Shown: in pieces, positions 33,315-51,780 of the stretch
Layout of the letters: each line of letters starts with the position of its first letter
Numbering within the stretch: the first letter of the stretch is position 1
Source of the DNA: Holophagae bacterium
Lineage (GTDB): Bacteria > Acidobacteriota > Holophagae > Acanthopleuribacterales > Acanthopleuribacteraceae
DNA length: 64,000 nt
Reading direction: 5' to 3'
Assembly: GCA_029263455.1 (NCBI GenBank)
Contig: JAJCXM010000004.1
Location: 62,001-126,000 of the forward strand
The notes under the pieces: generated by a model
What the model was told of the DNA's origin: nothing
The model's input: the letters and a program-made list of their open reading frames with translations, nothing else
Databases searched by the model: none
Program-made: the position numbers and the translations under genes

Positions 33315-33344
33315 TTGACATTTAATAGAACCACATTCTACATT
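33315..33344 (+). promoter_or_regulatory. Sigma-70-type promoter of the beta-oxidation operon
   Basis: TTGACA (33315-33320) and TACATT (33339-33344) are separated by 18 bases. The spacer and -10 region carry a tandem ACATTCTACATTCT and an AGAA-N5-TTCT inverted repeat, which could be the operator for the divergent TetR. The thiolase start lies 45 bases downstream. Confidence 0.6.
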
Positions 33345-33389
33345 CTAGGTTATCACGAAACAAGCGGCACCCCTGGAAGGAGACAAAAG

Positions 33390-34595: not shown

Positions 34596-34605
34596 GGAGG
34601 AATTA

Positions 34606-36735
34606 ATGTCAATCAAATTAGAGAAAGACGCGGACCATATTGCGGTTGTTACCTTCGACCTAAAAGATCGCTCAACCAATGTCATCAATCGTTCATTGCT
34701 TGAACCTTTTAGTGAAATTGTCGAAGGCCTTTTAACGGATGAATCACTAACAGGTATTATTTTGACGTCTGCAAAACGGGACTTTATCGCGGGCGCCGAC
34801 CTCGACATGCTGGCTCAAGCGAGTGATCCGGCCGAGACATTCAATATGATTGAAAGTTTTAAGGCGCTTCTGCGCAAGTTGGAGTTGCTCAAGAAACCCG
34901 TTGTGGCTGCCATCAATGGCACGGCACTAGGTGGCGGTTACGAAGTAGCCCTGGCCGCAAAATATCGAGTCGCCATCAACGACCCGAAAACAAAACTTGG
35001 ACTGCCTGAAGTCACATTAGGACTCTTGCCCGGCGGAGGTGGCACACAGCGGCTGTCCCGCATGATAGGCATCCAAGCGTCTTTGCCTTTATTACTGGAA
35101 GGAAAGCAATTGAATCCGGAGGCCGCGAAAGAGGCTGGACTAATTGATGAGTTGGCCAAAGATCGCGCTGACATGATGGAGAAAGCGCGCATTTGGATCA
35201 AGAACAATCCACGTGCGATGCAGCCTTGGGATAGCCGCAAGTTTCGCTATCCTGGTGGTGATTCTAAACATCCTGCGGTCGCTCAAATGTGGGCCATTGC
35301 GCCTTCGATGCTTAACCTCAAAACCCATGGCAATTACCGAGCGCCTCGCCTCATCATGGCATCGGTATTTGAGGGTAGTCTGGTCAATTTTGATACCGCA
35401 AGCCGCATTGAGTCACGTTACTTCACCTCGCTTGCCTGTGGACAAGAATCTAAGAATATGATCGGCGCATTCTGGCACCAGCTGAATTCGATTAAAAAGG
35501 GAGCCAGTCGTCCTGCGGCCGAATCACGACCTGTCAAACGGGTCGGAATCTTAGGCGCTGGCATGATGGGATCGGGCATCGCCTATTCGGCAGCTCGCGC
35601 TGGTATCGAAGTCGTATTAAAGGATGTCACAAATGAACAGGCCGAAAACGGCAAAGCTTACTCCGAAAAACTGCTCAAGAAGCGCGTCCGACGTGGTCGT
35701 ATGGACAAGCAAAAAATGGCTTCAATTTTAGATTTGATCCAGCCAACAACAAACGTTGACGACTTGGCGAATTGTGATTTGATCATTGAGGCCGTTTTCG
35801 AGAATCGTGAACTAAAGGCTCAGGTCACGAAAGAAACCGAGGCTGTTTTGTCGGCTGGGTATGTATTCGCGTCAAACACGTCGACGTTACCCATCACTGG
35901 CCTTGCTAAGGCTTCCAAAGCACCAGCGCAGTTCATTGGTCTTCATTTCTTCTCTCCGGTGGACAAAATGCCATTGGTAGAAATCATTGTTGGCGAAGAG
36001 ACGTCAGAGGCAACGCTCGCATACGCATTTGATTTTGTGCTACAAATCGCAAAAACACCCATTGTGGTGAATGACAGTCGAGGCTTCTATACATCGCGTG
36101 TATTTAGCACCTATGTCATGGAAGGATTGGCCATGCTGCGAGAAGGTCAAGACGCGCAACGAATTGAACAGGCCGGTTTTCGAGCAGGCATGCCAGTAGG
36201 ACCGCTAGCTGTTTCTGACGAAGTTAGCCTTTCACTGATGGCTCACATCATGGATCAGACCGAACGAGACGCGATCGCCGAAGGCAAAACCGTAGATAAT
36301 CACCCGGGTCAAGAAGTGGTGCGCTCCATGGTTAAACAATTCGATCGTCCTGGCAAGAAAGCTGGTAAGGGTTTCTATGATTACCCGCAAGGCGAAAGCA
36401 AGAGATTGTGGCCGCAACTCCACGACCACTATCCGCCTCAAGAGGCTCTGTTATCAATCGATGAAATGGTGCGTCGCATTACGTTCATTCAAGCCATAGA
36501 AACCGTTCGTTGTTTAGATGAAGGCGTACTTACAACAACAGCCGACGCCAATCTAGGCAGTGTATTCGGCTGGGGATTCGCTCCTTTCAAAGGCGGGACA
36601 TTGCAGTTCATAAATGATTTCGGCTTGGCCGCCTTTGCAGATGAAGCAGATAGACTGACCCAGACCTACGGTGCTCGATTCAAAACACCTGAACGTATTC
36701 GCCAGATGGCGCAAGCTGGAGAGACCTTTGTTTGA
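34606..36735 (+). CDS. FadJ/FadB-type enoyl-CoA hydratase / 3-hydroxyacyl-CoA dehydrogenase
   Basis: A 710-residue multifunctional protein from the ATG at 34606 (GGGAGG upstream). The N-terminal crotonase domain (1-190) has the oxyanion-hole and acid residues in GGGYEVAL (Glu113) and LPEVTLGLLPGGGGTQRL (Glu135). The linker leads to the NAD-binding 3-hydroxyacyl-CoA dehydrogenase domain beginning VGILGAGMMGSGIAYSAA (313-330). The catalytic His is in FIGLHFFSPVDKMPLVEII, and a C-terminal dimer domain ends the protein. It performs the hydration and second oxidation of beta-oxidation. It pairs with the thiolase 10 bases upstream. Confidence 0.95.
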   Translation: MSIKLEKDADHIAVVTFDLKDRSTNVINRSLLEPFSEIVEGLLTDESLTGIILTSAKRDFIAGADLDMLAQASDPAETFNMIESFKALLRKLELLKKPVVAAINGTALGGGYEVALAAKYRVAINDPKTKLGLPEVTLGLLPGGGGTQRLSRMIGIQASLPLLLEGKQLNPEAAKEAGLIDELAKDRADMMEKARIWIKNNPRAMQPWDSRKFRYPGGDSKHPAVAQMWAIAPSMLNLKTHGNYRAPRLIMASVFEGSLVNFDTASRIESRYFTSLACGQESKNMIGAFWHQLNSIKKGASRPAAESRPVKRVGILGAGMMGSGIAYSAARAGIEVVLKDVTNEQAENGKAYSEKLLKKRVRRGRMDKQKMASILDLIQPTTNVDDLANCDLIIEAVFENRELKAQVTKETEAVLSAGYVFASNTSTLPITGLAKASKAPAQFIGLHFFSPVDKMPLVEIIVGEETSEATLAYAFDFVLQIAKTPIVVNDSRGFYTSRVFSTYVMEGLAMLREGQDAQRIEQAGFRAGMPVGPLAVSDEVSLSLMAHIMDQTERDAIAEGKTVDNHPGQEVVRSMVKQFDRPGKKAGKGFYDYPQGESKRLWPQLHDHYPPQEALLSIDEMVRRITFIQAIETVRCLDEGVLTTTADANLGSVFGWGFAPFKGGTLQFINDFGLAAFADEADRLTQTYGARFKTPERIRQMAQAGETFV

Positions 36736-36742
36736 GGGCCAA

Positions 36743-38254
36743 ATGAAATCAATCTACTTCAATGAAGAACACCAGTCGTTCCGCGAACACGTGCGCACCT
36801 TTATCGAACGCGAAGTCAAACCGCAAGCTGATCAGTGGGAAACTGACCGACTCATTCCCAAGTCGCTATGGAAGGCTTTGGGTGATCTAGGCTATTTGGG
36901 CATCAACCACCCAGAAGCTTATGGTGGATCGGCGGCAGATTTCTTCTATTCCGTGGTTTTCCTTGAAGAAGTGGCTCGAGCTGGCTATGCAGGCCTGTCG
37001 GCTGCAGTTTCCGTTCACGAGTACATGGCCACAGCCCACCTGAGCCGTGTCGGCAGTCACGAACTTAAACAAAAGTACCTTGTTCCCGCCATCGCCGGTG
37101 ATCAGCTTGGAGCGCTGGCGATAAGCGAGCCTGACACAGGATCCGATGTCGCTAAAATCACAACAACAGCGAAGTTGGACGGCGACCACTTTGTGGTGTC
37201 CGGTGCCAAAATGTTCATTACCAACGGCACGTCAGCTGATTTTGTCACGACCGCCGTCAAAACGCATTTAGAGGGCAAACCGCCGGGCATTTCTCTCTTA
37301 ATCATAGACAGTCAATCGCCAGGATTTAGCGCCAGCAAACTAGACAAGATCGGTTGGCATAGTTCAGACACGGCTATTCTGTCGTTTGACGAAGTCCGTG
37401 TGCCCGTCACCAACATCATTGGTGAGATCAACAAAGGATTCTCATACATTATGGAATCTTTCCAGCTGGAACGCTTGGTTGGTGCCGTGATGGCCATAGG
37501 TGGTATGGACGCGGCTGTCGCCACCACCCTGGAATATATGGCTTCACGAAAAGCATTCAATCGTAAGCTCACTCGCTTTCAAGCTATCAGGCACCGTATG
37601 GTCGACCTCATGACCGAGATCGAATCTATTCGCCAATTCACGTATCACACTTGTTGGCTTTACGATCAAGGCGAAGTACCGGTTACTGAATGTTCGATGG
37701 CAAAAATGAAAGCCACCGAATTGGCCAATCAGGTCGTCGACGCGTGCCTGCAGTTCCATGGCGGATACGGCTACATGGAAGAATACGCCATCGCGCGCAT
37801 GTACCGCGACAGCCGTGCAGGCACGATTGTGGGTGGAACGAGCGAAATCATGCGTGAAATCATTGCAAAAACCTGCCTCGACGATGTGCAGTTTAAATCG
37901 GCCTATCAAAAAACAAGCGATGTACCGAGCGTGACACCTGCTGAGCTCTTTGCGAGTCTTGATCAGCGTTTTAAGCAACAAATGGCGGCAGATGTGGACT
38001 TAACGCTCAATTTCGAACTCAAGGGCGATGGTGGCGGCAGCTTCACCGTGACCGTGCGCGACGGGACCTGCAAAGTGAGTGAAGGACTCAGTCAAGATGC
38101 TCACTGTGTGGTAGAGACGGAAGCGAGCACCTATGTTCAGATTGAAACGGGGCAAATGGCCGCCGAATCTGCATTTATGAGCGGTCAGGTGCAAGTCTCC
38201 GACATCCCATCAATGATGTTATTTGGGCAAATGTTCCGTCGTTACGGATCCTAG
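36743..38254 (+). CDS. Acyl-CoA dehydrogenase fused to a C-terminal SCP2 sterol-carrier domain
   Basis: A 503-residue fusion. Residues 1-385 are a complete FAD-dependent acyl-CoA dehydrogenase (ALAISEPDTGSDVAKITT, KMFITNGTSADF, FHGGYGYMEEYAIARMYRDS, GGTSEIMREI). The catalytic base is probably Glu243 in FQLERLVG, as in the long-chain/isovaleryl branch, because the C-terminal position is Gly. Residues 395-503 match an SCP2-like lipid-binding domain (FASLDQRFKQQMAADVDLTL, GSFTVTVRDGTCKV, FMSGQVQVSDIPSMMLFGQM). It carries out the first oxidation step; the SCP2 part may present long-chain or sterol-like acyl-CoA. It starts seven bases after the FadJ-type gene. Confidence 0.93.
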   Translation: MKSIYFNEEHQSFREHVRTFIEREVKPQADQWETDRLIPKSLWKALGDLGYLGINHPEAYGGSAADFFYSVVFLEEVARAGYAGLSAAVSVHEYMATAHLSRVGSHELKQKYLVPAIAGDQLGALAISEPDTGSDVAKITTTAKLDGDHFVVSGAKMFITNGTSADFVTTAVKTHLEGKPPGISLLIIDSQSPGFSASKLDKIGWHSSDTAILSFDEVRVPVTNIIGEINKGFSYIMESFQLERLVGAVMAIGGMDAAVATTLEYMASRKAFNRKLTRFQAIRHRMVDLMTEIESIRQFTYHTCWLYDQGEVPVTECSMAKMKATELANQVVDACLQFHGGYGYMEEYAIARMYRDSRAGTIVGGTSEIMREIIAKTCLDDVQFKSAYQKTSDVPSVTPAELFASLDQRFKQQMAADVDLTLNFELKGDGGGSFTVTVRDGTCKVSEGLSQDAHCVVETEASTYVQIETGQMAAESAFMSGQVQVSDIPSMMLFGQMFRRYGS

Positions 38255-39388
38255 ATGCTGGACACGCCATCTAAAACCAAGCGATCGGGGCCCCTGCTCG
38301 GTTTGATGGTGATTGATCTGACACGCCACTACCCTGGACCTCTAGCAACGCGATTATTGGCCGAGCTGGGAGCGCGTGTCATCAAAGTGGAATTTGAACC
38401 TCACGGTGACCCAATTAGGCAGCTACCACCATTTGTCGATGGCGTTGCGCCTGCAGACATGGCGTTGAATGCCGGCAAAGAGAGCCTACGACTTGATCTT
38501 GCAAAAGCTGAAGATCAAGCGTTGTTAGGGCGCATGATCAGCGCTGCAGACATCCTAATAGAGCCATTCTTACCGGGCTACTTGGATAAACTCAAGATAG
38601 GTTACGATTGGGCACGTGCACTTAATGAGAGACTCATTTGGGTGTCACTTACCGGATACGGACAATCGGGTCCACGAGCGCAGGAACCTGGTCATGACAT
38701 CAATTACATGGGTCTGACTGGGATGTTAGACCTCAACGGAACAGACCGCTGTCTTCCTTTTCCATTGCAAATCGCGGACACCGCTGGCGGAGCCTACATG
38801 GCACTGATCGCCATCTTATCCGCCGTCTACGAGCGACAGCAATCTCAGCTTGGCCAGTTCGTGGACGTATCCATGGTCGATGGATTATTGCCATTGATGA
38901 GCCTTCAATTTGCGCATTTAGCGGCTGCGCCTAACGCTAGAGGTCAACATCCACTTGCCGGTCAACTTGCCTGTTATAACGCCTATACCTGTGCCGATGG
39001 TAAATCAATGGCGCTGGGCGCTCTTGAAGCTAAATTTTGGCAACGCTTCTGCCAGTCTGTTGATAAACAAGAATGGATAGATCGCCAATATAGCACCGGA
39101 CTTGCGCAGCAGTCGCTTAAGCAAGAAGTCACACAATTATTCCTATCAAAGCCGCAATTATTTTGGGTGGAGTTAGGTCAACAGAGTTCTTGCTGCTTGA
39201 CACCCGTCCACGCTCTCACAGAAGTCGAAACGGACCCCCATCTGGCGTTTCGCGATTCGCTGGTAACCGTTGACGGGATTACGAGAAGTGCTCCTCCAGT
39301 GCGCTTCAGTCGCACACCTGCTGAAAACATGACATCCACAGAATCGTCAGGCACGTCAAATAATCGTTTACGGGCCGAGTTTCAGTAG
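38255..39388 (+). CDS. CaiB/BaiF family CoA-transferase (alpha-methylacyl-CoA racemase-like)
   Basis: A 377-residue family III CoA-transferase. Its ATG follows the stop of the upstream gene without a gap. Visible signatures are VIDLTRHYPGPLATRLLAEL near the N-terminus, RVIKVE, LNAGKESLRLDL, SLTGYGQSGP and the conserved Asp148 in PGHDINYMGLTG. The family includes alpha-methylacyl-CoA racemase, needed to degrade methyl-branched acids; together with the SCP2 fusion this suggests branched or sterol-side-chain substrates. That reading is inference. Confidence 0.9.
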   Translation: MLDTPSKTKRSGPLLGLMVIDLTRHYPGPLATRLLAELGARVIKVEFEPHGDPIRQLPPFVDGVAPADMALNAGKESLRLDLAKAEDQALLGRMISAADILIEPFLPGYLDKLKIGYDWARALNERLIWVSLTGYGQSGPRAQEPGHDINYMGLTGMLDLNGTDRCLPFPLQIADTAGGAYMALIAILSAVYERQQSQLGQFVDVSMVDGLLPLMSLQFAHLAAAPNARGQHPLAGQLACYNAYTCADGKSMALGALEAKFWQRFCQSVDKQEWIDRQYSTGLAQQSLKQEVTQLFLSKPQLFWVELGQQSSCCLTPVHALTEVETDPHLAFRDSLVTVDGITRSAPPVRFSRTPAENMTSTESSGTSNNRLRAEFQ

Positions 39389-40286: not shown

Positions 40287-41135
40287 GTGGATCCACGTAT
40301 CCAATTGACGCACCAAATGGTCCGTTTGATCGGACTAATCGATGAGTTCAAGGGACGCTGGAATGCGCGCCAAACGATCTCAAAATCGAGGCTAAAGAGG
40401 CTGCACCAAAAGGCGGCAGTAGAATCGATTGGGTCATCCACAAGAATCGAAGGTTCTAAGCTTACCAATGACCAAGTCGCTGAACTGATTAAGCGCGAAC
40501 CCATGATGACAAAATCAAGAGACGAAGATGAAGTGGCGGGTTACGCGAAAACCCTGGTCTACGTTTATGAGTCGCATCCATCGTTAGATTTATCTGAAAC
40601 ATGCATAAGCAACTTACATGACCGCTTACTTTTTTTTAGTGACCGCGATGAACCGCATCGTGGAAGATACAAAACAAGACCGAACCACGTGGAAGCTTTT
40701 AACCACGAGGGTAACCGTTTAGGTGTCACATTCGAAACCACCTTGCCAGAAGAAACGCCCGCTCAGATTAAAGAACTGATCGACTGGGCCGGCGGGGCTC
40801 TGGCCGGTGACAAACTGCACCCTTTAATTGTCATCCCCGTCTTTGACGCCCATTTTCTGGCCATACGGCCTTTTCAAAGCGGCAATGGCCGCCTGTCAAG
40901 AATCCTAACCTCGCTCCTATTAATTCAAGCTGGATACACGCATCTCCCCTATGTTTCGCTAGAGAATATGATCGAAAAGCGACCTGAACGCTATTTCATT
41001 AGCCTGCGTGCCGCGCAAGCTACGCTGCAACAAAATGAACCTCAATATGGTGACTGGATTGGCTTCTTCTTAGAAACCTTGCGGCAACAGCAAGTTGCTC
41101 TCCAGCTGGACATGGATGTAACTCAGTCGATCTAA
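40287..41135 (+). CDS. Fic domain protein with altered active-site motif
   Basis: A 282-residue protein from a GTG with GGAGG six bases upstream. The N-terminal helix carries the inhibitory motif SxxxEG (Ser51-Gly56, STRIEG), making it a class II Fic protein. The Fic core reads LAIRPFQSGNGRLSR (191-205): the family's HPFxDGNGRxxR becomes RPFQSGNGRLSR, with Arg194 replacing the catalytic His and Ser198 replacing the metal-binding acid. Family members transfer AMP or phosphate groups to protein hydroxyls. With these replacements normal AMPylation would not be expected. The C-terminal part continues with the usual LLLIQAGYTHLPYVSLE. Confidence 0.9.
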   Translation: MDPRIQLTHQMVRLIGLIDEFKGRWNARQTISKSRLKRLHQKAAVESIGSSTRIEGSKLTNDQVAELIKREPMMTKSRDEDEVAGYAKTLVYVYESHPSLDLSETCISNLHDRLLFFSDRDEPHRGRYKTRPNHVEAFNHEGNRLGVTFETTLPEETPAQIKELIDWAGGALAGDKLHPLIVIPVFDAHFLAIRPFQSGNGRLSRILTSLLLIQAGYTHLPYVSLENMIEKRPERYFISLRAAQATLQQNEPQYGDWIGFFLETLRQQQVALQLDMDVTQSI

Positions 41136-41272: not shown

Positions 41273-42238
41273 ATGATACGGACCGATTGGACACGACACG
41301 AAGTGACAGAAATCTATCAGCGTCCTTTGATCGAACTGATGCATCTGGCTGCGCAAACACATCGCGATAATAATAATCCAGCCCATGTTCAAGTCAGTAC
41401 GCTTCTATCAATCAAGACCGGAAACTGTTCCGAGGATTGCGCATATTGTCCCCAATCCGCTCGCTATACATCGTCCATCGAGAAACACAAACTCTTACAG
41501 CTTGAAGAGGTTAAAGAGAGTGCGGCTGCGGCAAAGAAGGACGGCGCCAGCCGTTTTTGCATGGGCGCTGCATGGCGTAACGTCAAAGATAACAGCGAAT
41601 TTGAACGCGTATTGGAAATGGTACGTACGGTCAAGGAAATGGACATGGAGGTTTGCTGCACTCTGGGAATGCTCAGTGAGAGCCAGGCCCAACAATTAAA
41701 GGATGCTGGTTTACACGCCTACAACCATAATCTCGATACCTCCCGAGAATATTATTCCGAAATCATTACCACTCGTACTTACGACGAACGCCTCGAAACC
41801 CTAAAAAACGCACGCCGCGCTGGGTTACAGGTATGCTGTGGAGGCATTATTGGTCTCGGTGAAAAAGAAACAGACCGCATTGAACTTCTATTCACGCTGG
41901 CAACACTGCCTGAACATCCGGAGTCAGTCCCCATCAATGCATTGGTGCCGGTATCAGGTACGCCTATGGAAAATTACACCCCTCCTGATTCATGGGAGAT
42001 GATACGCGTCATTGCTTGCGCTCGTGTCCTGATGCCTAAGGCCCGAATTCGCCTTTCAGCGGGTCGATTAACGATGAATCATGAAGCTCAAGCACTTTGT
42101 TTTATGGTGGGTGCAAATTCCATATTTGCAGGTGATAAGTTACTAACAACACCTAACCCAGAACCACAAACCGATGGTGCCCTGTTCAAAGTTCTTGGTA
42201 TCCAGTTTGGCGCTCATGAGTTGGCGAACACGCCATAA
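41273..42238 (+). CDS. bioB: Biotin synthase
   Basis: A 321-residue radical-SAM enzyme that inserts sulfur into dethiobiotin. The cluster cysteines are Cys52, Cys56 and Cys59 in NCSEDCAYCPQS. Further signatures are MGAAWRNVKD, CCTLGMLSESQAQQLKDAGL, YNHNLDTSREYY, CCGGIIGLGE and the C-terminal SAGRLTMNHEAQALCFMVGA with NSIFAGDKLLTTPNP. It is the first gene of a long same-direction run including bioF, bioD, and later bioA. No BirA operator was recognised upstream. Confidence 0.97.
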   Translation: MIRTDWTRHEVTEIYQRPLIELMHLAAQTHRDNNNPAHVQVSTLLSIKTGNCSEDCAYCPQSARYTSSIEKHKLLQLEEVKESAAAAKKDGASRFCMGAAWRNVKDNSEFERVLEMVRTVKEMDMEVCCTLGMLSESQAQQLKDAGLHAYNHNLDTSREYYSEIITTRTYDERLETLKNARRAGLQVCCGGIIGLGEKETDRIELLFTLATLPEHPESVPINALVPVSGTPMENYTPPDSWEMIRVIACARVLMPKARIRLSAGRLTMNHEAQALCFMVGANSIFAGDKLLTTPNPEPQTDGALFKVLGIQFGAHELANTP

Positions 42239-42240
42239 TC

Positions 42241-43368
42241 ATGGGCTTTCAAGACATAGGCTCAAGATTGCAGCAGCAGCTCACCACCCGAACAAGGTGC
42301 GGCAGTTTACGTAAGCTAACAGCAGCCACTGCCGGATCCGACTTCTGCTCGAACGACTACCTCGGTTACGCACGTCATGCGCTACTTAAGCAGCGTATCA
42401 AAGAAGCTAGCTTAGATCTGGCCTATGGTTCAACCAGTTCACGACTCGTGCGTGGCCATCGTGAATTGACTGATCAAGTCGAACAGCGCATCGCAGAATT
42501 CCACCAGAGCCCGTGCGCCCTAATCTACAACTCAGGTTACGATGCTAACCTTGGTTTCTGGTCGTGTATCCCGCAACGCGGTGATCTGGTTATTTTCGAC
42601 GAGTACATCCACGCATCCATCCGTGACGGTATCCGGCTAAGTTTTGCCCGTCATGCTTCGTTCAAGCACAACAGCTTAGATCACTTGGAAGAGCGACTAA
42701 AATCCGCAAAGGGCCTCATTTACGTGGCCATTGAATCCGTTTACTCAATGGGTGGTGCTTTAGCACCCCTGAAAGAGGTACAGCAACTGTGTGCGGACTA
42801 CGGCGCCCGACTTGTTGTTGATGAGGCGCACGCAACTGGCGTTGTGGGAGAGCGCGGGCAAGGACTAGTTCAAACAGCTAATCTCCAGGAGCAAACATTT
42901 GCTCGAGTCCATACATTCGGTAAGGCGCTGGGTTGTCACGGCTCTGCAATTTTGGGTTCACAGGCACTCAAAGACTATTTAATCAATTTTTCCCGGCCCT
43001 TGATCTACACAACAGCCTTGCCGCCACACAGCTTGATGGCCATAGATTGTGCCTATCACTTCCTGGACGAAAACCCCCAACACGTCAATGAACTAAACCT
43101 AACCATTGATTACTTTACTCATCAAGCGGACCACCCGTCATTCATCAAATCTCCATCCCCTATTCAAGGCTTCAAAACTCCTGGCAACCACGCTGTCCTG
43201 GATTTGGCTAATCGCCTGCAGCAACAAGGTTTAGATGTTAGACCAATGCGACATCCGACCGTGCCTCTAGGGTCTGAACAGATTCGCATCTGCCTGCATC
43301 GATTCAATACAAGACAGGAAATCAACCATTTGCTTCAGTGTCTGATGCGAGAAGTTAAACAACCGTGA
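42241..43368 (+). CDS. bioF: 8-amino-7-oxononanoate synthase
   Basis: A 375-residue PLP-dependent alpha-oxoamine synthase that condenses pimeloyl-ACP/CoA with L-alanine. The PLP lysine is Lys228 in HTFGKALGCHGSAILG, and the cofactor aspartate lies in VVDEAHATGVVGERGQG (194-197 DEAH). SNDYLGYARH, TSSRLVRGHRELTDQVEQRI and FDEYIHASIRDGIRLS are typical. It starts two bases after bioB and overlaps bioD by four bases. Related alpha-oxoamine synthases include serine palmitoyltransferase, but bioB and bioD on either side support the biotin role. Confidence 0.95.
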   Translation: MGFQDIGSRLQQQLTTRTRCGSLRKLTAATAGSDFCSNDYLGYARHALLKQRIKEASLDLAYGSTSSRLVRGHRELTDQVEQRIAEFHQSPCALIYNSGYDANLGFWSCIPQRGDLVIFDEYIHASIRDGIRLSFARHASFKHNSLDHLEERLKSAKGLIYVAIESVYSMGGALAPLKEVQQLCADYGARLVVDEAHATGVVGERGQGLVQTANLQEQTFARVHTFGKALGCHGSAILGSQALKDYLINFSRPLIYTTALPPHSLMAIDCAYHFLDENPQHVNELNLTIDYFTHQADHPSFIKSPSPIQGFKTPGNHAVLDLANRLQQQGLDVRPMRHPTVPLGSEQIRICLHRFNTRQEINHLLQCLMREVKQP

Positions 43369-43994
43369 ACTCCAATGCTGTATTTGTCACCGGAATTGGT
43401 ACCGATGTCGGCAAGACATTGGCCAGCGCCGTCATTGTTCAAGCGCTCGGAGCAGATTATTGGAAACCGGTGCAAGCAGGTGATTTAGAGCATTCCGATA
43501 GCCACAAGATTGTCCAGTTGTGCGACCTTCACACCGGAACCATACACCCGGAAACCTACCGTCTCAGCCAAGCAATGTCACCGCACGCAGCTGCGAAACT
43601 CGACAATACATTCATTGACCTTGACTTAATTCGACTGCCCGAATCAAGAAATTGGCTGGTAGTTGAAGGTGCAGGCGGCTTGCTTGTGCCGCTTAACGAA
43701 CAATCCACGATTTTTGACTTAATGCAAAAACTTTCCACCCCCATCATCTTGGTCGCGCGCCACTACTTGGGTTCTATCAACCACACGCTATTAAGTTTGA
43801 ACCTATTAAAAACAGCACCGCTAAAAGGCATAATCTATTGCGGGGAAATGAACCAAGCCAGTTTGAGTATTGTGCACCAACGGGAAAAAGGAATTCCATT
43901 CATTCATATCCCGCAACTCGATCATATTGATAGAGCCGTCATAAATAGGCTTGCAGATGAACACAGGCCAACGCTCAAGCAATGGCTCATATGA
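43365..43994 (+). CDS. bioD: Dethiobiotin synthase
   Basis: A 209-residue ATP-dependent ligase that closes the ureido ring of dethiobiotin. The P-loop is GIGTDVGKT (10-18), followed by WKPVQAGDLEHSDS and the VVEGAGGLLVPL motif that contacts the substrate. It overlaps bioF by four bases. The next gene starts after 67 bases with its own GGGAG, in the same direction. Confidence 0.95.
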   Translation: MNSNAVFVTGIGTDVGKTLASAVIVQALGADYWKPVQAGDLEHSDSHKIVQLCDLHTGTIHPETYRLSQAMSPHAAAKLDNTFIDLDLIRLPESRNWLVVEGAGGLLVPLNEQSTIFDLMQKLSTPIILVARHYLGSINHTLLSLNLLKTAPLKGIIYCGEMNQASLSIVHQREKGIPFIHIPQLDHIDRAVINRLADEHRPTLKQWLI

Positions 43995-44061
43995 ATAAAC
44001 TTGACTTCAAGCCAGTATGCCATAAAGTTGAGAGCGGAAATTTGAAAGGGAGACAGAACCA

Positions 44062-44298
44062 ATGATTAGCATGGAACAATTTATGGGCATTGTTGCTGGC
44101 CAACTAGGACTGGACGCAAAGGGGTTAACCCCGGAATCGCACATGATGAACGATTTGGGTGCCGATTCACTAGCTATGGTCAACATCATCGCCGAGGTGG
44201 AATCCGAACTAGATGTGGAGTTTGACGATCTGGATTTTGATGAAGTGGAAACGGTCGCGGATGCCTACAACAAAATGCTTGAGGAACTCGCCACTTGA
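44062..44298 (+). CDS. Acyl carrier protein
   Basis: A 78-residue ACP. The phosphopantetheine attachment is Ser36 in LGADSLAMVNII. The remainder is the usual acidic four-helix bundle, with FDDLDFDEVETVADAY. It is not next to fatty-acid synthase genes (fabD, fabG, fabF), so it is probably a dedicated carrier for this cluster. Its stop overlaps the oxygenase start (TTGA), and a fatty-acyl-AMP ligase able to load it lies one gene further on. Confidence 0.95.
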   Translation: MISMEQFMGIVAGQLGLDAKGLTPESHMMNDLGADSLAMVNIIAEVESELDVEFDDLDFDEVETVADAYNKMLEELAT

Positions 44299-45245
44299 CC
44301 TTTTCAGATGGGCCTCTTCTAGAAGACGCAAAAGCAGCTCGCCACTTTTTTCGCGAAAAGGGGTATCTGATTGCCAGAAACCTCATCCCTGCAACGGCTT
44401 GCAAAGGAGTCCTCAGCGCCTTTCAAACAAACATCAAGCCTAGCGATGCTCTATTTATGCGTCAGACAACCACGCGCGCAGAAAAGCACAACTTGTCAGC
44501 TCACGGCCTCATGACCAACCCCATGTTGGACGTCCATGAGATTACCGAACCCGAACATCAATTATTCCGTGATGCAGCCCTTGATGTTTTCACTTCCAGT
44601 GGGTTGAACAAGGCCCTTTCTGCGCTCTTAGATGATGAACCTGTCATGGTCCAATCCATGTATTTTGAGAGTAGCCGCGGAACAGATGCCCACGTCGACA
44701 GCCACTTCATCGACGCCACGGAGCCAGGTCGACTGATTGGTGCCTGGATCGCCGTTCAGGACATTGATGAGCTAGGTGGACGTTTTTGTGTTTATCCCGA
44801 AAGCAACCGCCTGGCAGAAGACGGCGTTTTTGATGCTGAAGTGACCCAAGTCGCTCAAGAATATGAGCGTCAATCGTTGTCTGTCATCCGCGGTTACCAA
44901 CTCGAAAAAAAGTCTTTTTCACTAAAGGAAGTCACCAAAACCAGACGCTTACTCATGCAGCTAATCAAGCAATCCGGTGTGCGTGTATTTGCTCCGCCTA
45001 TGAATGAGGGCGATGTACTCTTTTTTTCCTCACAAACGCTACACGGTAGTCTGAAACCAGGAGCCCCTACCTTAGAACCTGGAGAGTTAGGTCAAGGACA
45101 AGGCCAATACTCACGCAATTCGTTAACCTGCCACTGGGTACCCAAACAGCAAGGTCTCATGCGCTATCGGAAAGTGGTAGAGCCCATGAACCTTAACTAC
45201 CATAACCAAACATGGATACACCAACCCCAGACATCGTTGACATAG
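44295..45245 (+). CDS. Phytanoyl-CoA dioxygenase (PhyH)-like Fe(II)/2-oxoglutarate oxygenase
   Basis: A 316-residue cupin-fold oxygenase starting at a TTG that overlaps the ACP stop. The iron triad is His133 and Asp135 in TDAHVDSHF and His250 in QTLHGSLKPG. Arg274 in YSRNSLTCHWVP probably binds 2-oxoglutarate, and LIGAWIAVQDIDELGGRFCV is typical of the family. Close coupling to the ACP gene suggests that an acyl-ACP is hydroxylated, probably near the thioester as in phytanoyl-CoA alpha-hydroxylation; that substrate is inference. Confidence 0.88.
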   Translation: MTFSDGPLLEDAKAARHFFREKGYLIARNLIPATACKGVLSAFQTNIKPSDALFMRQTTTRAEKHNLSAHGLMTNPMLDVHEITEPEHQLFRDAALDVFTSSGLNKALSALLDDEPVMVQSMYFESSRGTDAHVDSHFIDATEPGRLIGAWIAVQDIDELGGRFCVYPESNRLAEDGVFDAEVTQVAQEYERQSLSVIRGYQLEKKSFSLKEVTKTRRLLMQLIKQSGVRVFAPPMNEGDVLFFSSQTLHGSLKPGAPTLEPGELGQGQGQYSRNSLTCHWVPKQQGLMRYRKVVEPMNLNYHNQTWIHQPQTSLT

Positions 45246-45300
45246 AATTAGGGCGCTGAGCGCGATGATTTGATAAACTGCGAGCTTTACGGGAGGCAGC

Positions 45301-46869
45301 ATGCCATTGGCTCAGGTAGATAACCTAGTTGCATTGATGCGATTGCGAGCTCAAGAAAGCGCTCATCAAACAGCTGTGGTATTTGCCGACAAAGAAACCA
45401 CGTACGGACAACTTTGGCATGACACGAATTCGTTTGCGGCCCAACTTCAGAGCAACGGTTTGCAACGTGGAGACAGAGTTGTCCTGCAATTGCCCAACTC
45501 AGCGGAGTTCTTTCAGGCTTACTACGGGGTTCAATTACTTGGTGCTGTGGCCGTGCCCATTTTCCACGGATCAAGTGTGCATCGATTAGCCATGCTCATC
45601 CAACTGTGTGGCGCCAAGGCTGTCGTTGTCGATTCCATGGACGTTCCTAATCTTGAATCACAATTAGCCGACGAACTAAAGGGTCCATCACCTTGCGTGA
45701 TAGATCTGCGCGCCGATAGGCCGTCAGCTGTGCCTGAAAATCTAAGCGATCCACTTCCCAGTCATCTAGCCATGCTGCAATACACGTCTGGCACAACCGG
45801 GAACCCAAAAGGCGTGATGCTAACCCATGGGAACCTGCTCGCCAACGTCAGGCAAATGATTCCAGTCGCTCAGTTCGTAACTGAAGATGTATTTGTAAGT
45901 TGGTTACCCGTTTATCACGACATGGGCCTGATTACGATGACCATGTGCCCCTTCTATTTGGGCGCAAAACTGGTGCTTTTGCCTGTCTCGCCGAAACCTT
46001 TCCCGTGGTTTTCAGCGATCGAAAAGTATGGCGGAACCATGACCGCATCCCCTGACTTTGGCTATCGATTCGCCACGAAATTTACGCGTAGATCAAAGTA
46101 CGATTTGTCTTCCCTGAGACGTGCCTTAATCGCCGCCGAACCGGTGCGAGAATCAACCATCCAAAGATTCGAAGACAAGTTCGGAGTCAAAGGCGTACTC
46201 AAACCGGGGTACGGGTTGGCCGAAGCCTCCGTAGCTGCCAGTTTTTGGAGCATGGACAGTCAGGAACGACTTATCGACGCGGATGGCCACGTTTCTGCCG
46301 GAAAAGCGATTCCCAACATGGATATCGCCATCATCGACAACGATCAATTTGTGCCAGCCGGAGACCATGGCGAAATAGTTATCCGCGGCGAAAACTGCAC
46401 CCAAGGATACTATCGCAACCCGACGGCGACACAGGACTTAAGCGCACCAGACGGATTCATCCGCACCGGCGACATGGGTTATCTCGATCAAGACGGTCAT
46501 CTCTTCATCATTGGACGTGCGAAGAACATCATTATTAGGGCGGGACGCAATCTAGCCCCACGCGAAATTGAAGAGGCCGCGGAAGAGATTTCGGGCGTTC
46601 GGATGGCCGCAGCCATTGGCATTGATGCCGGAGGCATCGAAGGTGAACAGATCATATTGTGTTGCGAAGTGGAACGTGGCAAGGCAACAAACGACCAGCG
46701 CGAGCAACTGATTAGAGACATACAAACCGGATTACACCAAAACCTAGGTTATAGACCCGACAAAGTGGTGCTGGTTAAGGCGCAGACTATTCCACGCACT
46801 TATAATGGGAAACTTCAATATAACGCCTTGAAACGTGCCTATTTGGCTGACAGCCTCGAAACAACATGA
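45301..46869 (+). CDS. Fatty-acyl-AMP ligase / acyl-ACP synthetase
   Basis: A 522-residue adenylate-forming enzyme behind GGGAGG. It has the P-loop LQYTSGTTGNPKGVMLTHGN, the FAAL-typical SWLPVYHDMGLI, the A5 motif GYGLAEAS and the A7/A8 region TGDMGYLDQDGHLFIIGRAK. The C-terminal catalytic lysine is in PRTYNGKLQYNAL. FAAL-type enzymes activate free fatty acids and pass them to carrier proteins, here most simply the ACP encoded two genes upstream. A free dicarboxylic acid or long-chain acid could be the substrate. Confidence 0.9.
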   Translation: MPLAQVDNLVALMRLRAQESAHQTAVVFADKETTYGQLWHDTNSFAAQLQSNGLQRGDRVVLQLPNSAEFFQAYYGVQLLGAVAVPIFHGSSVHRLAMLIQLCGAKAVVVDSMDVPNLESQLADELKGPSPCVIDLRADRPSAVPENLSDPLPSHLAMLQYTSGTTGNPKGVMLTHGNLLANVRQMIPVAQFVTEDVFVSWLPVYHDMGLITMTMCPFYLGAKLVLLPVSPKPFPWFSAIEKYGGTMTASPDFGYRFATKFTRRSKYDLSSLRRALIAAEPVRESTIQRFEDKFGVKGVLKPGYGLAEASVAASFWSMDSQERLIDADGHVSAGKAIPNMDIAIIDNDQFVPAGDHGEIVIRGENCTQGYYRNPTATQDLSAPDGFIRTGDMGYLDQDGHLFIIGRAKNIIIRAGRNLAPREIEEAAEEISGVRMAAAIGIDAGGIEGEQIILCCEVERGKATNDQREQLIRDIQTGLHQNLGYRPDKVVLVKAQTIPRTYNGKLQYNALKRAYLADSLETT

Positions 46870-47564
46870 GTGACAAAAAGCAGCACGCAGCAACGGTACG
46901 AGATTCTCTATCAGGCAAGATAATTGGTCGTATCTTGGCTTTTTATATGCGTCTTGTTTATTACACTAGCCGTAAGCGCTGGACCGACGCACACCATCTA
47001 ACTGACGCTTTGGCTAGCGGATCGCCTGTCATCGTGGTTTCGTGGCACAACCGAAACGTCCTAGCTGCCTACGCTTTTTCAAGCGTGGCTCCGAAACATG
47101 CAAAAAACCTCGTTCCCTTAATAAGCGCTTCGCGGGACGGCGGGATGGCTGCCTCCACCATGCGCAGCTTTGGCATGAAATGCATTAGAGGTTCATCGAG
47201 CAGAGGCGGCTTAGCCGCACTAAAAATGCTGACCTCGTCGGTAAAAAACGGTCTCCATGTCGCCATAACGCCAGATGGCCCTCGCGGTCCTAAATACAGC
47301 GTACAAGGTGGCGTTGTGACCACCGCCAAACTCACTGGAGCGCCGATTGTGCCCATGACATTTCAGGCTAAAAGAAAGAAGCGATTAGGTTCTTGGGATC
47401 AACTCATCGTGCCTTACCCATTTGGTTCCTTACATTTTGTGTATGGAGCGCCCATTAGAGTGCCACGCGATACCTCGGCAAAGCAGCTGACCGAGTATTC
47501 CGAATCGGTTAGGTTGGAGTTGATGCGCATCAACGAAAAATCGGAACAGTTTAATGGCCTTTAA
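46866..47564 (+). CDS. DUF374-type lysophospholipid acyltransferase family protein
   Basis: A 232-residue protein of the PlsC-like superfamily. Catalytic-type His61 is in VVSWHNRNVL; LISASRDGGMAAS, IRGSSSRGGLAAL and VAITPDGPRGPKYSV are the DUF374 signatures. DUF374 proteins are linked to lipid A or other glycolipid acylation. Its start overlaps the acyl-AMP ligase stop by four bases, and the next acyltransferase starts 11 bases before its end, so the three products are made together. Confidence 0.88.
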   Translation: MSDKKQHAATVRDSLSGKIIGRILAFYMRLVYYTSRKRWTDAHHLTDALASGSPVIVVSWHNRNVLAAYAFSSVAPKHAKNLVPLISASRDGGMAASTMRSFGMKCIRGSSSRGGLAALKMLTSSVKNGLHVAITPDGPRGPKYSVQGGVVTTAKLTGAPIVPMTFQAKRKKRLGSWDQLIVPYPFGSLHFVYGAPIRVPRDTSAKQLTEYSESVRLELMRINEKSEQFNGL

Positions 47565-48537
47565 TCGTCATAAAGATCGTTCTCAGCCGCGACCCCCGGG
47601 CCCGGATCCACATCCGAGAGTCATTCACCGTGTCCAGTACATGGCACTCCTGTTTTTTGAAGCATTAGTTCGATTCTTTCCCATGTCGTGGGTTCAGAGA
47701 TTGGGTGCGGGTATCGGTATTTTAGTACACACCGTTAACCGACCTCACCGCCGTTATGCTCTTATCAACCTGGACCTAACACTAGGCAACAGTATCGGTG
47801 AAGCAGAGAAACGCCAGATCGTGCTGCGGTGTTATAAGCACTTAGGTCGAGCCTTACTTGAAACACTACGCCTTCAAAAATTGACCAAGGAGAATTTTTC
47901 TGACTGGGTCGAACTTGAGAATATTGATGTCTTCGACCGTTGTCTTGAATCAGGTAAGGGTGTCATTCTGTGTACGGCCCACTACGGCAACTGGGAAGTG
48001 ATGAATCAGGTCCTAGGATATTTGAATTTGCCCATGTCGGTGATGGCAAGACCTATGGACAACCCACTTGTTCACAACCACTTGGAACGCATCCGTACAC
48101 GCACAAACAACCAAGTTATCTACAAACATAAATCCGTTCGAAAACTCTTAACAGCGCTCTCAGAAAACAGAATCGTGGGCATTGTCAACGACCAAAATGT
48201 GCATGACAGAAATCGACTAATGGTGCCCTTTTTTGGTCGACCAGCGGCCACCACACCCGTGCCAGCAGCCATTGCTTACAAGACCGGCGCTGCCATCGTC
48301 ACCGGCTATTCAGTACCACTGGGCGGCGGGCGATATTTGTTGAGGTACGACGAGCCCATCTTCGCAGATGCCCAAGCCGAGAAGACAGCCGAGACGTTAC
48401 GCATCACACAGCTGCTAAATGACCGGCTGGAGGCGCAAATCCGTAAAGTTCCCCATTGTTGGTTCTGGGTCCATAAGCGTTTCAAGATGGACGAACATGG
48501 ATTAACCGATCTTTATCGCCAGGCACGCAAGATTTAA
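47554..48537 (+). CDS. LpxL/HtrB-family acyltransferase
   Basis: A 327-residue inner-membrane acyltransferase of the lipid A late-acyltransferase family. The catalytic pair H(x4)E is His143/Glu148 in LCTAHYGNWEVMN. The substrate-binding stretches are VNDQNVHDRNRLMVPFFGRP and AIAYKTGAAIVTGYSV. A basic, proline-rich N-terminus precedes the hydrophobic anchor (VQYMALLFFEALVRFFPM). These enzymes take acyl chains from acyl-ACP, so the dedicated ACP upstream is a plausible donor. It could be a true LpxL or a variant for another lipid. Confidence 0.9.
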   Translation: MAFNRHKDRSQPRPPGPDPHPRVIHRVQYMALLFFEALVRFFPMSWVQRLGAGIGILVHTVNRPHRRYALINLDLTLGNSIGEAEKRQIVLRCYKHLGRALLETLRLQKLTKENFSDWVELENIDVFDRCLESGKGVILCTAHYGNWEVMNQVLGYLNLPMSVMARPMDNPLVHNHLERIRTRTNNQVIYKHKSVRKLLTALSENRIVGIVNDQNVHDRNRLMVPFFGRPAATTPVPAAIAYKTGAAIVTGYSVPLGGGRYLLRYDEPIFADAQAEKTAETLRITQLLNDRLEAQIRKVPHCWFWVHKRFKMDEHGLTDLYRQARKI

Positions 48538-48647
48538 GTTGTGGCTGTGTATAAGACATACATAAATTTTGTTATGCTGAAACCAGCTGTAGAAGAACGT
48601 TCGCCGACGCAACACGTATGTTTGATCATGACAAGGAGGTTCCAACC

Positions 48648-49331
48648 ATGAGATGGCTAGCCGTATTATTCCTGTCCTCTATGATTTATGCCCAGGCTCC
48701 GCGCGTTATGGAACACCAAGTAGAAGTAAACGCCCTGGAAAAGGTCGAACTAGCCGTCAACGTGGGCGATATACGTATCGACGTGGTTGAAGGAAGCTCC
48801 ATTCACATCAAAGTGACGTTGACAGCCCATAAACGCGGTATCTTCGGCAACGCAAAGAAGTTGGAATCAACGATGAAAGAGGCCCGGCTATTAAGTCGCG
48901 TCAATGACCGTCGAATACTGAAACTTGAAATAGACGCTCCTTACAAAAAGAAATATTTGCAAGAGGATTGGGTCATTCAAGTCCCCTCCCATTTGGGTTT
49001 TGAGTTAGACAATGGCGTGGGTGATATCAACCTTGATGGCATTCGCGGACAGATCGACATCAATTCCGGTGTCGGCACAATAACCCTCACACGGGTTTCT
49101 GGCTCTATTGAAGTGGACGTCGGCGTCGGCGATGTCAATATTCAAGCACAAGGATCCTCGTATAAGAATATCGAACTGGATACAGGCACCGGAGACGCTA
49201 GCTTGCACAATTTGCAAGGCATAATCCAGGATGACGACTTCTTAGGCGGTCACCTCTTATGGAAAGGAACCGGTAGCCATCGCATTGAAGTCGACACGGG
49301 CGTTGGCGACATCATCGTTCGCATCGATTAA
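48648..49331 (+). CDS. Secreted DUF4097-like beta-repeat protein
   Basis: About 227 residues from an ATG at 48648 with AAGGAGG upstream. A signal peptide (MRWLAVLFLSSMIYAQ) is followed by a beta-helix-like repeat built on G(V/T)GD: NVGDIRIDVVEG, NGVGDINLDGIRG, SGVGTITLTRVSG, VGVGDVNIQAQG, TGTGDASLHNLQG and TGVGDIIVRID. This is the DUF4097/putative adhesin pattern. The function is unknown. An ATGCTC/GAGCAT hairpin (49334-49350) separates it from bioA. Confidence 0.82.
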   Translation: MRWLAVLFLSSMIYAQAPRVMEHQVEVNALEKVELAVNVGDIRIDVVEGSSIHIKVTLTAHKRGIFGNAKKLESTMKEARLLSRVNDRRILKLEIDAPYKKKYLQEDWVIQVPSHLGFELDNGVGDINLDGIRGQIDINSGVGTITLTRVSGSIEVDVGVGDVNIQAQGSSYKNIELDTGTGDASLHNLQGIIQDDDFLGGHLLWKGTGSHRIEVDTGVGDIIVRID

Positions 49332-49369: not shown

Positions 49370-50641
49370 ATGGTGAATCTCTCTTCTCCAATTTGGCAGC
49401 CCTATACGCAAATGAAGGGCGCACCCCGACCGATAGGCATCGAACGGGGCGAAGGTGCCGTACTCTACACCAACGACGGTCGCACCCTGATTGACGCCAT
49501 TTCTTCATGGTGGGTCAATATTCACGGCCACGGGCATCCGTACCTGGCCGACGCCATTTCAGAACAGGCACGACGACTCGAACACGTCATCTTCGCCGGT
49601 TTCACCCATGCTCCAGCCGAAAATCTGACGCGTAGACTATTGGAAATCCTTCCCGAGAACCAAGAACATCTTTTCTTCTCCGACAATGGATCCACCGCTG
49701 TAGAGGTGGCGATTAAGATGGCTATTCAAGCTCAGTCACGGATCCAACCGGCGAAGACACGACTAATGGCCCTTGAGAACGGTTATCACGGTGACACCTT
49801 TGGGGCGATGTCTGTTAGTGGCCGATCTGTCTTTACCAAACCGTTCAATGACTACCTTTTCGACGTCACCAAAATTCCCGTCCCCATCAAAGGACATGAA
49901 CAACTAGCCATCGAGACCTTAAAAAAGGCGCTGAAGGCAGATGACGTGGCCGCCTTTATTTTCGAACCCTTAATTCAAGGCACAGCTGGCATGGTTATTT
50001 ATGATGCGGACATCTTGAGTCAAATGATCAAGATGTGTCGTGACCACCAAGTGTTAACGATCGCGGATGAAGTGATGACAGGGTTTGGACGAACCGGAAC
50101 CCTATTTGCCTCGCATCAATTAAGTCACTTGCCGGACATTATCTGCCTATCCAAAGGCCTAACGGGTGGCAGTATGCCTCTGGCAGTTACAACCGTGACA
50201 GCCGATGTTTATCAACGTTTTTTGAGCGACGACCCAGCCGACGCCTTCTTTCACGGTCATTCGTATTGCGGGAACCCACTTGGATGTGCTGCCGCATTGG
50301 CTAGTCTTGACCTGTTACTCGATGCAAAAACGATACAACAAATCGATCACATAAGCCGGCGGCATAAGGTTTTCGCTGAACGCATTTCTGACCATAAATC
50401 GGCCAAGCACGTCAGATCGCTGGGTACGATTCTGGCGATTGAAATTGAAGCACCAGAATCTGGCTACCTTTCAAGAGTGCGCCATACAATTTATCAGCAT
50501 GCAATCAGCGAAGGTGTGCTTTTGAGGCCTCTTGGCAACGTTCTTTACACCATTCCCCCCTACTGCATCACTGATGCACAACTAGATCGAATTTATGATG
50601 TCATGCAAAGTACCTTAGACCTCTTCATAGCCGAAAGATGA
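49370..50641 (+). CDS. bioA: Adenosylmethionine-8-amino-7-oxononanoate aminotransferase
   Basis: A 423-residue class III aminotransferase that uses SAM as amino donor to make 7,8-diaminopelargonate. The N-terminal PIWQPYTQMKGAPRPIGIER is the BioA signature; ISSWWVNIHGHGHPYL, SDNGSTAVEVAIKMA, NGYHGDTFGAMS, ADEVMTGFGRTG and PLP lysine Lys262 in LSKGLTGGSMPL follow. It is separated from bioB-F-D by six genes of lipid or unknown function, all in the same direction. It overlaps the ketosynthase gene by four bases, so these two are coupled. Confidence 0.96.
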   Translation: MVNLSSPIWQPYTQMKGAPRPIGIERGEGAVLYTNDGRTLIDAISSWWVNIHGHGHPYLADAISEQARRLEHVIFAGFTHAPAENLTRRLLEILPENQEHLFFSDNGSTAVEVAIKMAIQAQSRIQPAKTRLMALENGYHGDTFGAMSVSGRSVFTKPFNDYLFDVTKIPVPIKGHEQLAIETLKKALKADDVAAFIFEPLIQGTAGMVIYDADILSQMIKMCRDHQVLTIADEVMTGFGRTGTLFASHQLSHLPDIICLSKGLTGGSMPLAVTTVTADVYQRFLSDDPADAFFHGHSYCGNPLGCAAALASLDLLLDAKTIQQIDHISRRHKVFAERISDHKSAKHVRSLGTILAIEIEAPESGYLSRVRHTIYQHAISEGVLLRPLGNVLYTIPPYCITDAQLDRIYDVMQSTLDLFIAER

Positions 50642-51780
50642 TGCGCCCACTTGCTGTCCTTTCTATTGGTTCCTTATCACCTTTGGGCTCGAATAGTGCG
50701 GCCATACACTCGGCATATCAACAAGGTAGACCACAATTTGGCGATCGGCAGCCTTGGGCGGCTCGCCTCACCGAGGATGCTGAATCAGCGTGTCAACAAG
50801 CGGTGTCCGGACATAGAGCCTACCGTCATTTGGACCGCAGTACACAAATGGGCATAGCCGCTACTCGGCTAGCCTGGTCGGCAGCGCAACATTTGACCAA
50901 CCAAAGCGCCTCAGTCTGTATTGGATCGTCACGTGGTGCGACTGGATTGTGGGAACAGAACCATCAGCATTTCTTAGCCGGGAAGAAAGTGTCGCCTCTA
51001 TCTTCACCCACAACAACGATGGGCAACCTTTCATCATGGGTGGCACAAGACTTAAGCATCCAGGGATTAGCCGTGGACCAGTCGGTGACCTGCAGTACCG
51101 CAATTCATGCGTTGATCCAGGCAAACGCCTGGATATGTGCCGGTTATGCAGACTGTGTCGTCACAGGCGCTGCTGAGGCACCATTAACGCCGTTTACCTT
51201 CGCGCAAATGAAAGCGCTACGAATTTATGCGGATCAAAGTGCCGTTTTTCCATGCGAACCCATGAATCGACAACGAAACAGTTTGATCCTGGGCGAGGGA
51301 GCCTGCATTTTTGTGGTTGCACCAGCTCCGTTCCGGGGCCAAATAGCCCAAATCATTGGCATCGGATTTGCCCGCGAGCAGATCGACCATCCTGTATCAA
51401 TCAGTGACTCAGGCAACGCTATTCGGCAGTCAATGGAACGGGCGATAAATGATGCGAATTTGGAGGCTGATGACATCGATGCAGTCGTTATTCATGCGCC
51501 AGGCACAGTCAAGGGCGATTTAGCTGAACTGGAGGCAATGCATGCTGTTTTTGGCGCTGTTCTACCTCAACTAATCTCAAATAAATGGTTAATAGGGCAC
51601 GCCTTAGCTGCGGCAGGTGCATTCAACCTAGAACTAGCTATTTTGGCCTGTAAACTTGGGCATTGTCCTTATTCTGCCTTTCGCATTGATGTGCCTCAGT
51701 TTTCCCGTCCCATTAGTCGCGTACTCGTAAACGCAACGGGATTCGGTGGTAATGCCGCGTCTCTAATTGTGACGGTCTAA
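50638..51780 (+). CDS. Beta-ketoacyl synthase-like protein coupled to bioA
   Basis: A 380-residue thiolase-fold protein, shorter than FabF (about 410). The catalytic set looks complete: Cys152 in SVTCSTAIHALIQANA, His286 in VVIHAPGTVKGDLAELEA (the usual HGTGT-x-GD region), and Lys316 and His321 in SNKWLIGHALAAAGAFNLEL. The C-terminal NATGFGGNAASL is typical. Ketosynthase-like genes next to bioA also occur in Bacteroidetes. It could extend an acyl-ACP toward the pimeloyl precursor or belong to the lipid genes upstream. The overlap with bioA favours the first. Confidence 0.88.
   Translation: MMRPLAVLSIGSLSPLGSNSAAIHSAYQQGRPQFGDRQPWAARLTEDAESACQQAVSGHRAYRHLDRSTQMGIAATRLAWSAAQHLTNQSASVCIGSSRGATGLWEQNHQHFLAGKKVSPLSSPTTTMGNLSSWVAQDLSIQGLAVDQSVTCSTAIHALIQANAWICAGYADCVVTGAAEAPLTPFTFAQMKALRIYADQSAVFPCEPMNRQRNSLILGEGACIFVVAPAPFRGQIAQIIGIGFAREQIDHPVSISDSGNAIRQSMERAINDANLEADDIDAVVIHAPGTVKGDLAELEAMHAVFGAVLPQLISNKWLIGHALAAAGAFNLELAILACKLGHCPYSAFRIDVPQFSRPISRVLVNATGFGGNAASLIVTV

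Follow-up and report, generated by a model that had tools for sequence, protein, structure and literature searches.

Within a window of 64,000 nucleotides (G000:C4:62001-126000) of the 6.25 Mb genome of a marine member of the Acanthopleuribacteraceae (Acidobacteriota), a run of five genes encodes an acyl carrier protein (ACP), a PhyH-like oxygenase, an acyl-AMP ligase (AAL), a DUF374 protein and an LpxL-like protein. A first-pass annotation had read these genes as one chain in which a free fatty acid is activated, loaded on the ACP, hydroxylated and transferred to lipid acceptors. The best explanation is that two functions share this stretch, an acyl-ACP oxygenase module formed by ACP, PhyH protein and AAL (hereafter the trio) and a pair of housekeeping acyltransferases, LpxJ and LpxL. 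We are confident that the trio is one unit and that it is separate from the two acyltransferases. Judged by its protein families, it probably loads a fatty acid on its own carrier and oxidises the chain there. Its most likely purpose would be the supply of pimeloyl-ACP for biotin synthesis, to which we give somewhat less than an even chance, and such a feed is more likely than a modification of lipids. It is the biotin operon context, which the first-pass annotation had left out, that makes the locus interesting. The trio consists of:

44062..44298, + strand: dedicated acyl carrier protein, trio gene 1 (Pfam PP-binding, 47.4 bits vs 20.8)
44295..45245, + strand: PhyH-type Fe(II)/2-oxoglutarate oxygenase, trio gene 2 (Pfam PhyH, 58.2 bits vs 22)
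45301..46869, + strand: acyl-AMP ligase / acyl-ACP synthetase, trio gene 3 (Pfam AMP-binding, 285 bits vs 29.9)

All five open reading frames (ORFs) were recovered on the + strand and their products exceed the curated Pfam cut-offs. Coordinates, family matches, catalytic residues and a cluster in a sister species bear out the gene assignments of the first-pass annotation. In that second species of the genus (locus L010) the same five genes occur in the same order with 60-77% protein identity, which argues that the cluster is not a chance reading. The ACP scores under every NCBIfam ACP cut-off shown, and its attachment site Ser36 is invariant in six homologs. The PhyH gene begins with a TTG start codon that overlaps the ACP stop codon, and in its product H133-x-D135, H250 and R274 are invariant in seven homologs. 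These residues form an HxD...H iron triad and a 2-oxoglutarate-binding Arg, the role of each being presumed by analogy, and the oxygenase is thus predicted to have an intact iron and 2-oxoglutarate site. Since this metal site keeps its Asp, we take the enzyme to be a hydroxylase rather than a halogenase. The family profile matches human phytanoyl-CoA dioxygenase (2a1x) at 8.3e-17, and an AlphaFold2 model built with four sequences is of low confidence (mean predicted local distance difference test, pLDDT, 50). The AAL carries the adenylation motifs TSGTTGNPKG, YGLAE, RTGDMG and PRTYNGK. Its nearest solved proteins are fatty acyl-AMP ligases, and the seven best PDB sequence matches listed include 7r7f, 3kxw, 4r0m, 3pbk and 8hd4, with 3kxw, 3pbk and FadD23 being fatty acyl-AMP ligases. 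When the AAL is aligned to 7r7f with regard to the CoA-blocking insertion specific to fatty acyl-AMP ligases, gaps in the query follow the YGLAE motif.

Conservation sets the trio apart. PhyH homologs were detected in six of the 61 genomes searched, and all six (G000, G001, G003, G004, G005 and G006) belong to the family, which is represented by every family genome of the search set (G000-G006, n=7). In all five relatives the ACP gene directly precedes and the AAL gene directly follows the PhyH gene, as in the window, so that the three genes are adjacent in the same order in 6/7 family genomes. Identities to the proteins of the window are 35-77% for ACP, 38-62% for PhyH and 54-69% for AAL. A PhyH profile run over 396 Acidobacteriota matched five genomes, with the trio present only in the two of this genus; this listing did not show G003-G006 among its matches. 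Within the same search, G363 has a lone relative and G280 and G357 gave weak matches; in G280 a divergent ligase (27%) is close by, without an ACP match. Because the trio is adjacent and ordered in 6/7 family genomes and its oxygenase has the HxD...H...R site, the activation, loading and oxidation steps of the chain put forward earlier form a real unit, whereas the step of transfer to lipid acceptors found no support.

Two further observations concern the surroundings of the trio. A protein of ~780-810 aa adjoins it in G003, G005 and G006 (L013:4994-7414, L011:12836-15181, L012:13052-15406), and the two of these that were scanned (L013, L011) matched no Pfam family. G003 also encodes a second PhyH relative (L014:9577-10410, 37% identity) without ACP or AAL alongside.

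Upstream of the ACP gene a promoter-like sequence was found by a consensus scan:

44001..44028, + strand: promoter-like element TTGACT-N16-TAAAGT

In five of the six trio genomes the ACP start is preceded, at a distance of ~60-135 bases, by a CTTGAC(A/T) element (by pattern search in G003, G005 and G006, matched by eye in G000 and G001); none was seen upstream of the ACP gene in G004. Promoter-like sites in the region are no commoner than in shuffled sequence (9 found vs 12.4 expected), so the support for this element lies in its conserved position and not in its consensus. The trio may have its own promoter, and the fixed gene order across five genera, taken with the element that these genomes share upstream, speaks for a core function more than for an accessory one.

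In the window the trio is embedded among biotin genes. A same-strand run comprises bioB, bioF, bioD, ACP, PhyH, AAL, DUF374, LpxL-like, DUF4097, bioA, a FabF-like synthase and an hrpB-like helicase, with overlaps of a few bases between ACP and PhyH, AAL and DUF374, DUF374 and LpxL, and bioA and the synthase. The five genes are thus preceded by bioBFD and followed, past DUF4097, by bioA and the FabF-like ketosynthase. BioB, BioD and BioA pass their NCBIfam cut-offs and BioF does not:

41273..42238, + strand: bioB, biotin synthase (NCBIfam TIGR00433, 404.7 bits vs cut-off 225)
42241..43368, + strand: bioF, 8-amino-7-oxononanoate (KAPA) synthase (best NCBIfam model TIGR00858 bioF, 336.9 bits, under the cut-off of 426.45)
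43365..43994, + strand: bioD, dethiobiotin synthase (NCBIfam TIGR00347, 113.9 bits vs cut-off 83.3)
49370..50641, + strand: bioA, 7,8-diaminopelargonic acid (DAPA) aminotransferase (NCBIfam TIGR00508, 545 bits vs cut-off 405)

Both species of the genus (G000, G001) have the trio placed between bioD and bioA. Across the family, BioB scored over its cut-off in exactly the six trio-bearing genomes, and G002 has neither. Known sources of the pimeloyl group were sought as well. BioW (PF03744) was found in 0/7 family genomes, with G044 as the positive among ten genomes, and no BioC over cut-off was detected in the seven family genomes. In the window's genome the best BioC score was 63.4 bits vs a cut-off of 184.95, these being only general methyltransferase scores, and the best candidate inspected there (L019) had no NCBIfam match at 1e-20. 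The biotin genes elsewhere are arranged as bioBFD in G003, G005 and G006 and as bioFDA with bioB apart in G004; no bioC, bioH or bioW-like gene was evident beside them, as judged from ORF lists and a comparison with the window's genes rather than from a full family scan. The ketosynthase of the locus (50638-51780) is FabF-like and not a BioZ of the beta-ketoacyl-ACP synthase III (KAS III) type that uses glutaryl-CoA, and BioZ was not searched for elsewhere in the genome.

The steps proposed for the trio are as follows. The AAL would convert a free fatty acid to its acyl-AMP and load it on the dedicated ACP, after which the PhyH-type Fe(II)/2-oxoglutarate oxygenase would oxidise the ACP-bound chain. 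Oxidation and cleavage near C7-C8 would leave pimeloyl-ACP, and this pimeloyl thioester would be supplied to BioF, the proposed consumer of the product, which starts the biotin ring. The sequence itself shows which genes are present, how they are ordered and conserved, which active-site residues they keep, their biotin context and the universal occurrence of LpxJ and LpxL in the class genomes searched; we infer the substrate, the C-C cleavage chemistry, the pimelate role and the order of reactions, the last (ligase, ACP, oxygenase) from the protein families.

Several points weigh against a role in biotin synthesis. The trio is away from the bio genes in four of the six trio genomes (G003, G004, G005 and G006), and the physical link is confined to the two species of one genus. 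There, adjacency is weak evidence because genes unrelated to biotin (lpxJ, lpxL, hrpB) share the stretch. The 6:1 co-occurrence of trio and BioB rests on seven genomes, of which G002 is a small one, and outside the family BioB is found without the trio in G007 and G044. A missing known route proves little, since the BioC search is insensitive: G007 has BioB and a BioF homolog, yet neither BioW nor a BioC over cut-off, and none of the ten other genomes searched gave a BioC above the threshold. Of the known pimelate enzymes, only BioW and BioC were covered by the genome-wide searches, which did not extend to BioI, BioE, BioZ or BioH. Regions upstream of bioB (eight genomes) and of the ACP gene (five genomes) showed no box of the BirA type, the one hit (13/18, upstream of the window's bioB) being within background, as 54/1000 random stretches score 13 and 17/1000 score 14. 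Characterised PhyH enzymes hydroxylate at C2, not C7, and the pimelate chemistry would need several oxidations. Finally, the comparison with yeast Bio1 drawn below is at the level of the described protein family.

The two remaining genes of the run encode acyltransferases:

46866..47564, + strand: DUF374 protein, LpxJ-family late lipid A acyltransferase (Pfam DUF374, 86 bits vs 26.8)
47554..48537, + strand: LpxL-family late lipid A acyltransferase (Pfam Lip_A_acyltrans, 188.5 bits vs 22.3)

The DUF374 protein has a WH pair at residues 60-61 and lacks an HX4D motif. Published work has identified members of DUF374 as LpxJ, an acyltransferase of late lipid A synthesis, and in the Rickettsia LpxJ described there, which lacks HX4D, W60 and H61 were mutated (PMC6148475). 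An LpxJ function would mean that the window's protein adds a 3' secondary acyl chain to lipid A. The gene is single-copy in the window's genome and occurs exactly once in each of the nine other class genomes, including G002, G007, G019 and G044, which have no trio. The LpxL-like protein carries the HX4(D/E) motif as HYGNWE at residue 143. Its best NCBIfam model is PRK08419 (201 bits, under the cut-off of 248), and because no NCBIfam LpxL equivalog passes its cut-off, the gene is filed as LpxL-family only. LpxL homologs are found in 10/10 class genomes, with orthologs of 51-60% identity in all five other trio genomes. In G003, G004, G005 and G006 the ortholog (51-58%) lies on a different contig from the trio or is separated from it by millions of bases, and the DUF374 and LpxL pair adjoins the trio only in G000 and G001. 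As the pair is universal in the class genomes searched, with or without the trio, and adjoins it in one genus only, and as the DUF374 protein has the W60-H61 residues of LpxJ, the two are most simply read as LpxJ and LpxL, housekeeping enzymes of late lipid A acylation that are passengers at this locus. In the course of this survey a second, distant Lip_A_acyltrans (PF03279) protein was seen in the window's genome (G000:C8:607835-608599, 91.9 bits, ~23% identical to that of the window), and the LpxL match in the small genome G002 (L119, G002:C54:65820-66725) contains one in-frame TAA stop.

The split between trio and acyltransferases is not entirely clean. The only DUF374 gene of G004 is found on the contig of the trio, at 8,064 bases from the PhyH gene, a closeness with a chance of ~0.14% if gene positions are treated as random, a figure calculated after the distances had been seen. 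Unrelated genes and a strand change intervene, and the distance to the trio is ~119 kb in G003 and ~602 kb in G005. An old neighbourhood of DUF374 and the trio is therefore possible.

These distances bear on the lipid A pathway of the first-pass annotation, in which the trio would make a 2-hydroxyacyl-ACP and LpxJ or LpxL would transfer the chain to lipid A, the hydroxyl group being installed before assembly. LpxJ and LpxL use acyl-ACP donors, which is established for LpxL, and both species of the genus have all five genes in one unbroken run with overlaps; the distances of DUF374 from the trio in G004 and in G003 point the same way. Against this stand the occurrence of both acyltransferases in every class genome searched, with or without the trio, and the unlinked LpxL genes of four trio genomes. 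A single five-gene lipid pathway was rejected on the first of these grounds. The coupling to lipid transfer finds no support beyond one genus, since DUF374 and LpxL look like housekeeping genes, and the suggested check for other copies gave DUF374 as the sole copy in this and each other class genome and the distant PF03279 protein as a second family member. The Sulfidibacter fatty acids listed in PMC8841776 include no 2-hydroxy acid, a weak argument as 3-hydroxy acids are also unlisted. We consider a lipid A role of the trio unlikely.

The main rival to biotin synthesis is that the acyl-ACP which the trio hydroxylates or oxidises in some other way is destined for a different product, for example as the starter unit of a lipopeptide, a polyketide or an amino lipid, with the position in the biotin cluster of one genus being incidental. 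The usual C2 hydroxylation by PhyH enzymes agrees with such a product, as does the separation of the trio from bio genes in most trio genomes. The nearest solved relatives of the AAL are fatty acyl-AMP ligases that serve polyketide and peptide systems, and its matches in plasmid sequences fall within annotated peptide synthetases. The PhyH protein had no match among plasmids. The family is described as rich in biosynthetic clusters (PMC8841776). However, the ORF lists of L011, L012, L013 and L015, few ORFs of which were scanned for families, showed no evident gene for a nonribosomal peptide synthetase (NRPS) or polyketide synthase (PKS) next to the trio. The gene order kept across genera and the shared upstream element also suggest a core role, and within the family the trio and BioB occur in exactly the same genomes. 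We rate this alternative as only a little less likely than the pimelate role. A further variant keeps biotin as the end: the AAL would be a pimelate:ACP ligase that does the job of BioW with ACP in place of CoA, and the oxygenase would first make or trim the free dicarboxylic acid. The same genes and context and the lack of BioW in all seven family genomes are compatible with this, but the AAL resembles enzymes for long-chain acyl groups, and the variant appears very unlikely.

The other genes around the trio were assessed for membership in the module:

48618..49331, + strand: DUF4097 protein (Pfam DUF4097, 33.8 bits; no match in the sister-species locus L010)
50638..51780, + strand: FabF-like beta-ketoacyl synthase (Pfam ketoacyl-synt, 58.9 bits)

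DUF4097 was rejected as a part of the module because it is missing from the cluster of the sister species. The FabF-like synthase, which has the Cys-His-His residues and whose start overlaps the end of bioA, was rejected as a core part, its homolog (52%) being confined to G001 with identities of at most 33% elsewhere; it might still serve the same pathway. Directly upstream of the biotin cluster (33315-39388) lies a run of genes which by reading resemble a thiolase, a fused enoyl-CoA hydratase/hydroxyacyl-CoA dehydrogenase, an acyl-CoA dehydrogenase and a CoA transferase, the last three being conserved in G001. Between a kinase-like gene and bioB a Fic-domain protein is encoded (40287-41135, 40.9 bits vs 24) that has no match in the sister-species locus. 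Two pairs of genes like those for a sensor kinase and a LytTR-type response regulator were noted further upstream from ORF reading alone (7708-9581 and 27713-31161).

A bacterial biotin route in which a PhyH-type oxygenase cuts the pimeloyl group from a fatty acid held on a dedicated ACP, loaded by its own acyl-AMP ligase, is conceivable, though less likely than not. The literature search found no bacterial PhyH-type biotin gene and no paper on an AAL with PhyH and ACP; most subscription papers were outside its scope, and this is no proof of absence. Lineages differ in how they make the pimeloyl part of biotin, and for yeasts, in which a PhyH-like protein has been implicated, the step is not yet known. 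With a compact unit of oxygenase, own carrier and own ligase such as these three genes, that chemistry could be put to a direct test in biotin mutants of E. coli. If a hydroxyacyl-ACP is made instead, the trio would still be a conserved module for acyl-ACP oxidation in a poorly studied family.

The two parts of the locus can be compared with known systems. The acyltransferase pair has the domains and active-site residues described for LpxJ and LpxL (PMC6148475). It differs in its co-location with biotin genes and the trio, which is seen in one genus only. Lipopeptide starter cassettes combine a fatty acyl-AMP ligase and an ACP with an oxygenase or halogenase. The trio is similar in having a ligase, a stand-alone ACP and a mononuclear iron enzyme that would act on the ACP-bound chain, and differs in that the ORF lists show no evident NRPS or PKS gene beside it. 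BioI of Bacillus subtilis is a cytochrome P450 which turns long-chain acyl-ACP into pimeloyl-ACP, the job proposed here for the PhyH protein. This likeness is one of function alone, as BioI is a heme enzyme of another fold and the window's oxygenase matched only PhyH in Pfam; BioI is not known to be accompanied by a dedicated ACP and ligase. BioE of Elizabethkingia and Chlamydia is a diiron oxygenase that acts on long-chain acyl-ACP and is encoded among biotin genes (PMC12915131). It shares with the window's oxygenase the non-heme iron, the use of O2, the proposed substrate and the biotin-gene setting, again as a likeness in working only. BioE has a ferritin-like diiron fold with electron donors and is paired with a repressor, whereas the oxygenase described here is a mononuclear Fe(II)/2-oxoglutarate enzyme by its Pfam match and is paired with ACP and AAL. 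Biotin synthesis that depends on O2 requires Bio1 in yeast, a PhyH-like protein with similarity to phytanoyl-CoA dioxygenase and a role upstream of KAPA; it is eukaryotic, its substrate is unknown, and the account in PMC7267198 mentions no linked ACP or AAL. If the trio does feed biotin synthesis, it would be another independent way of using an oxygenase for this step, next to the P450 BioI and the diiron BioE. As a bacterial counterpart of Bio1 it could then help to show what that protein does in yeast.

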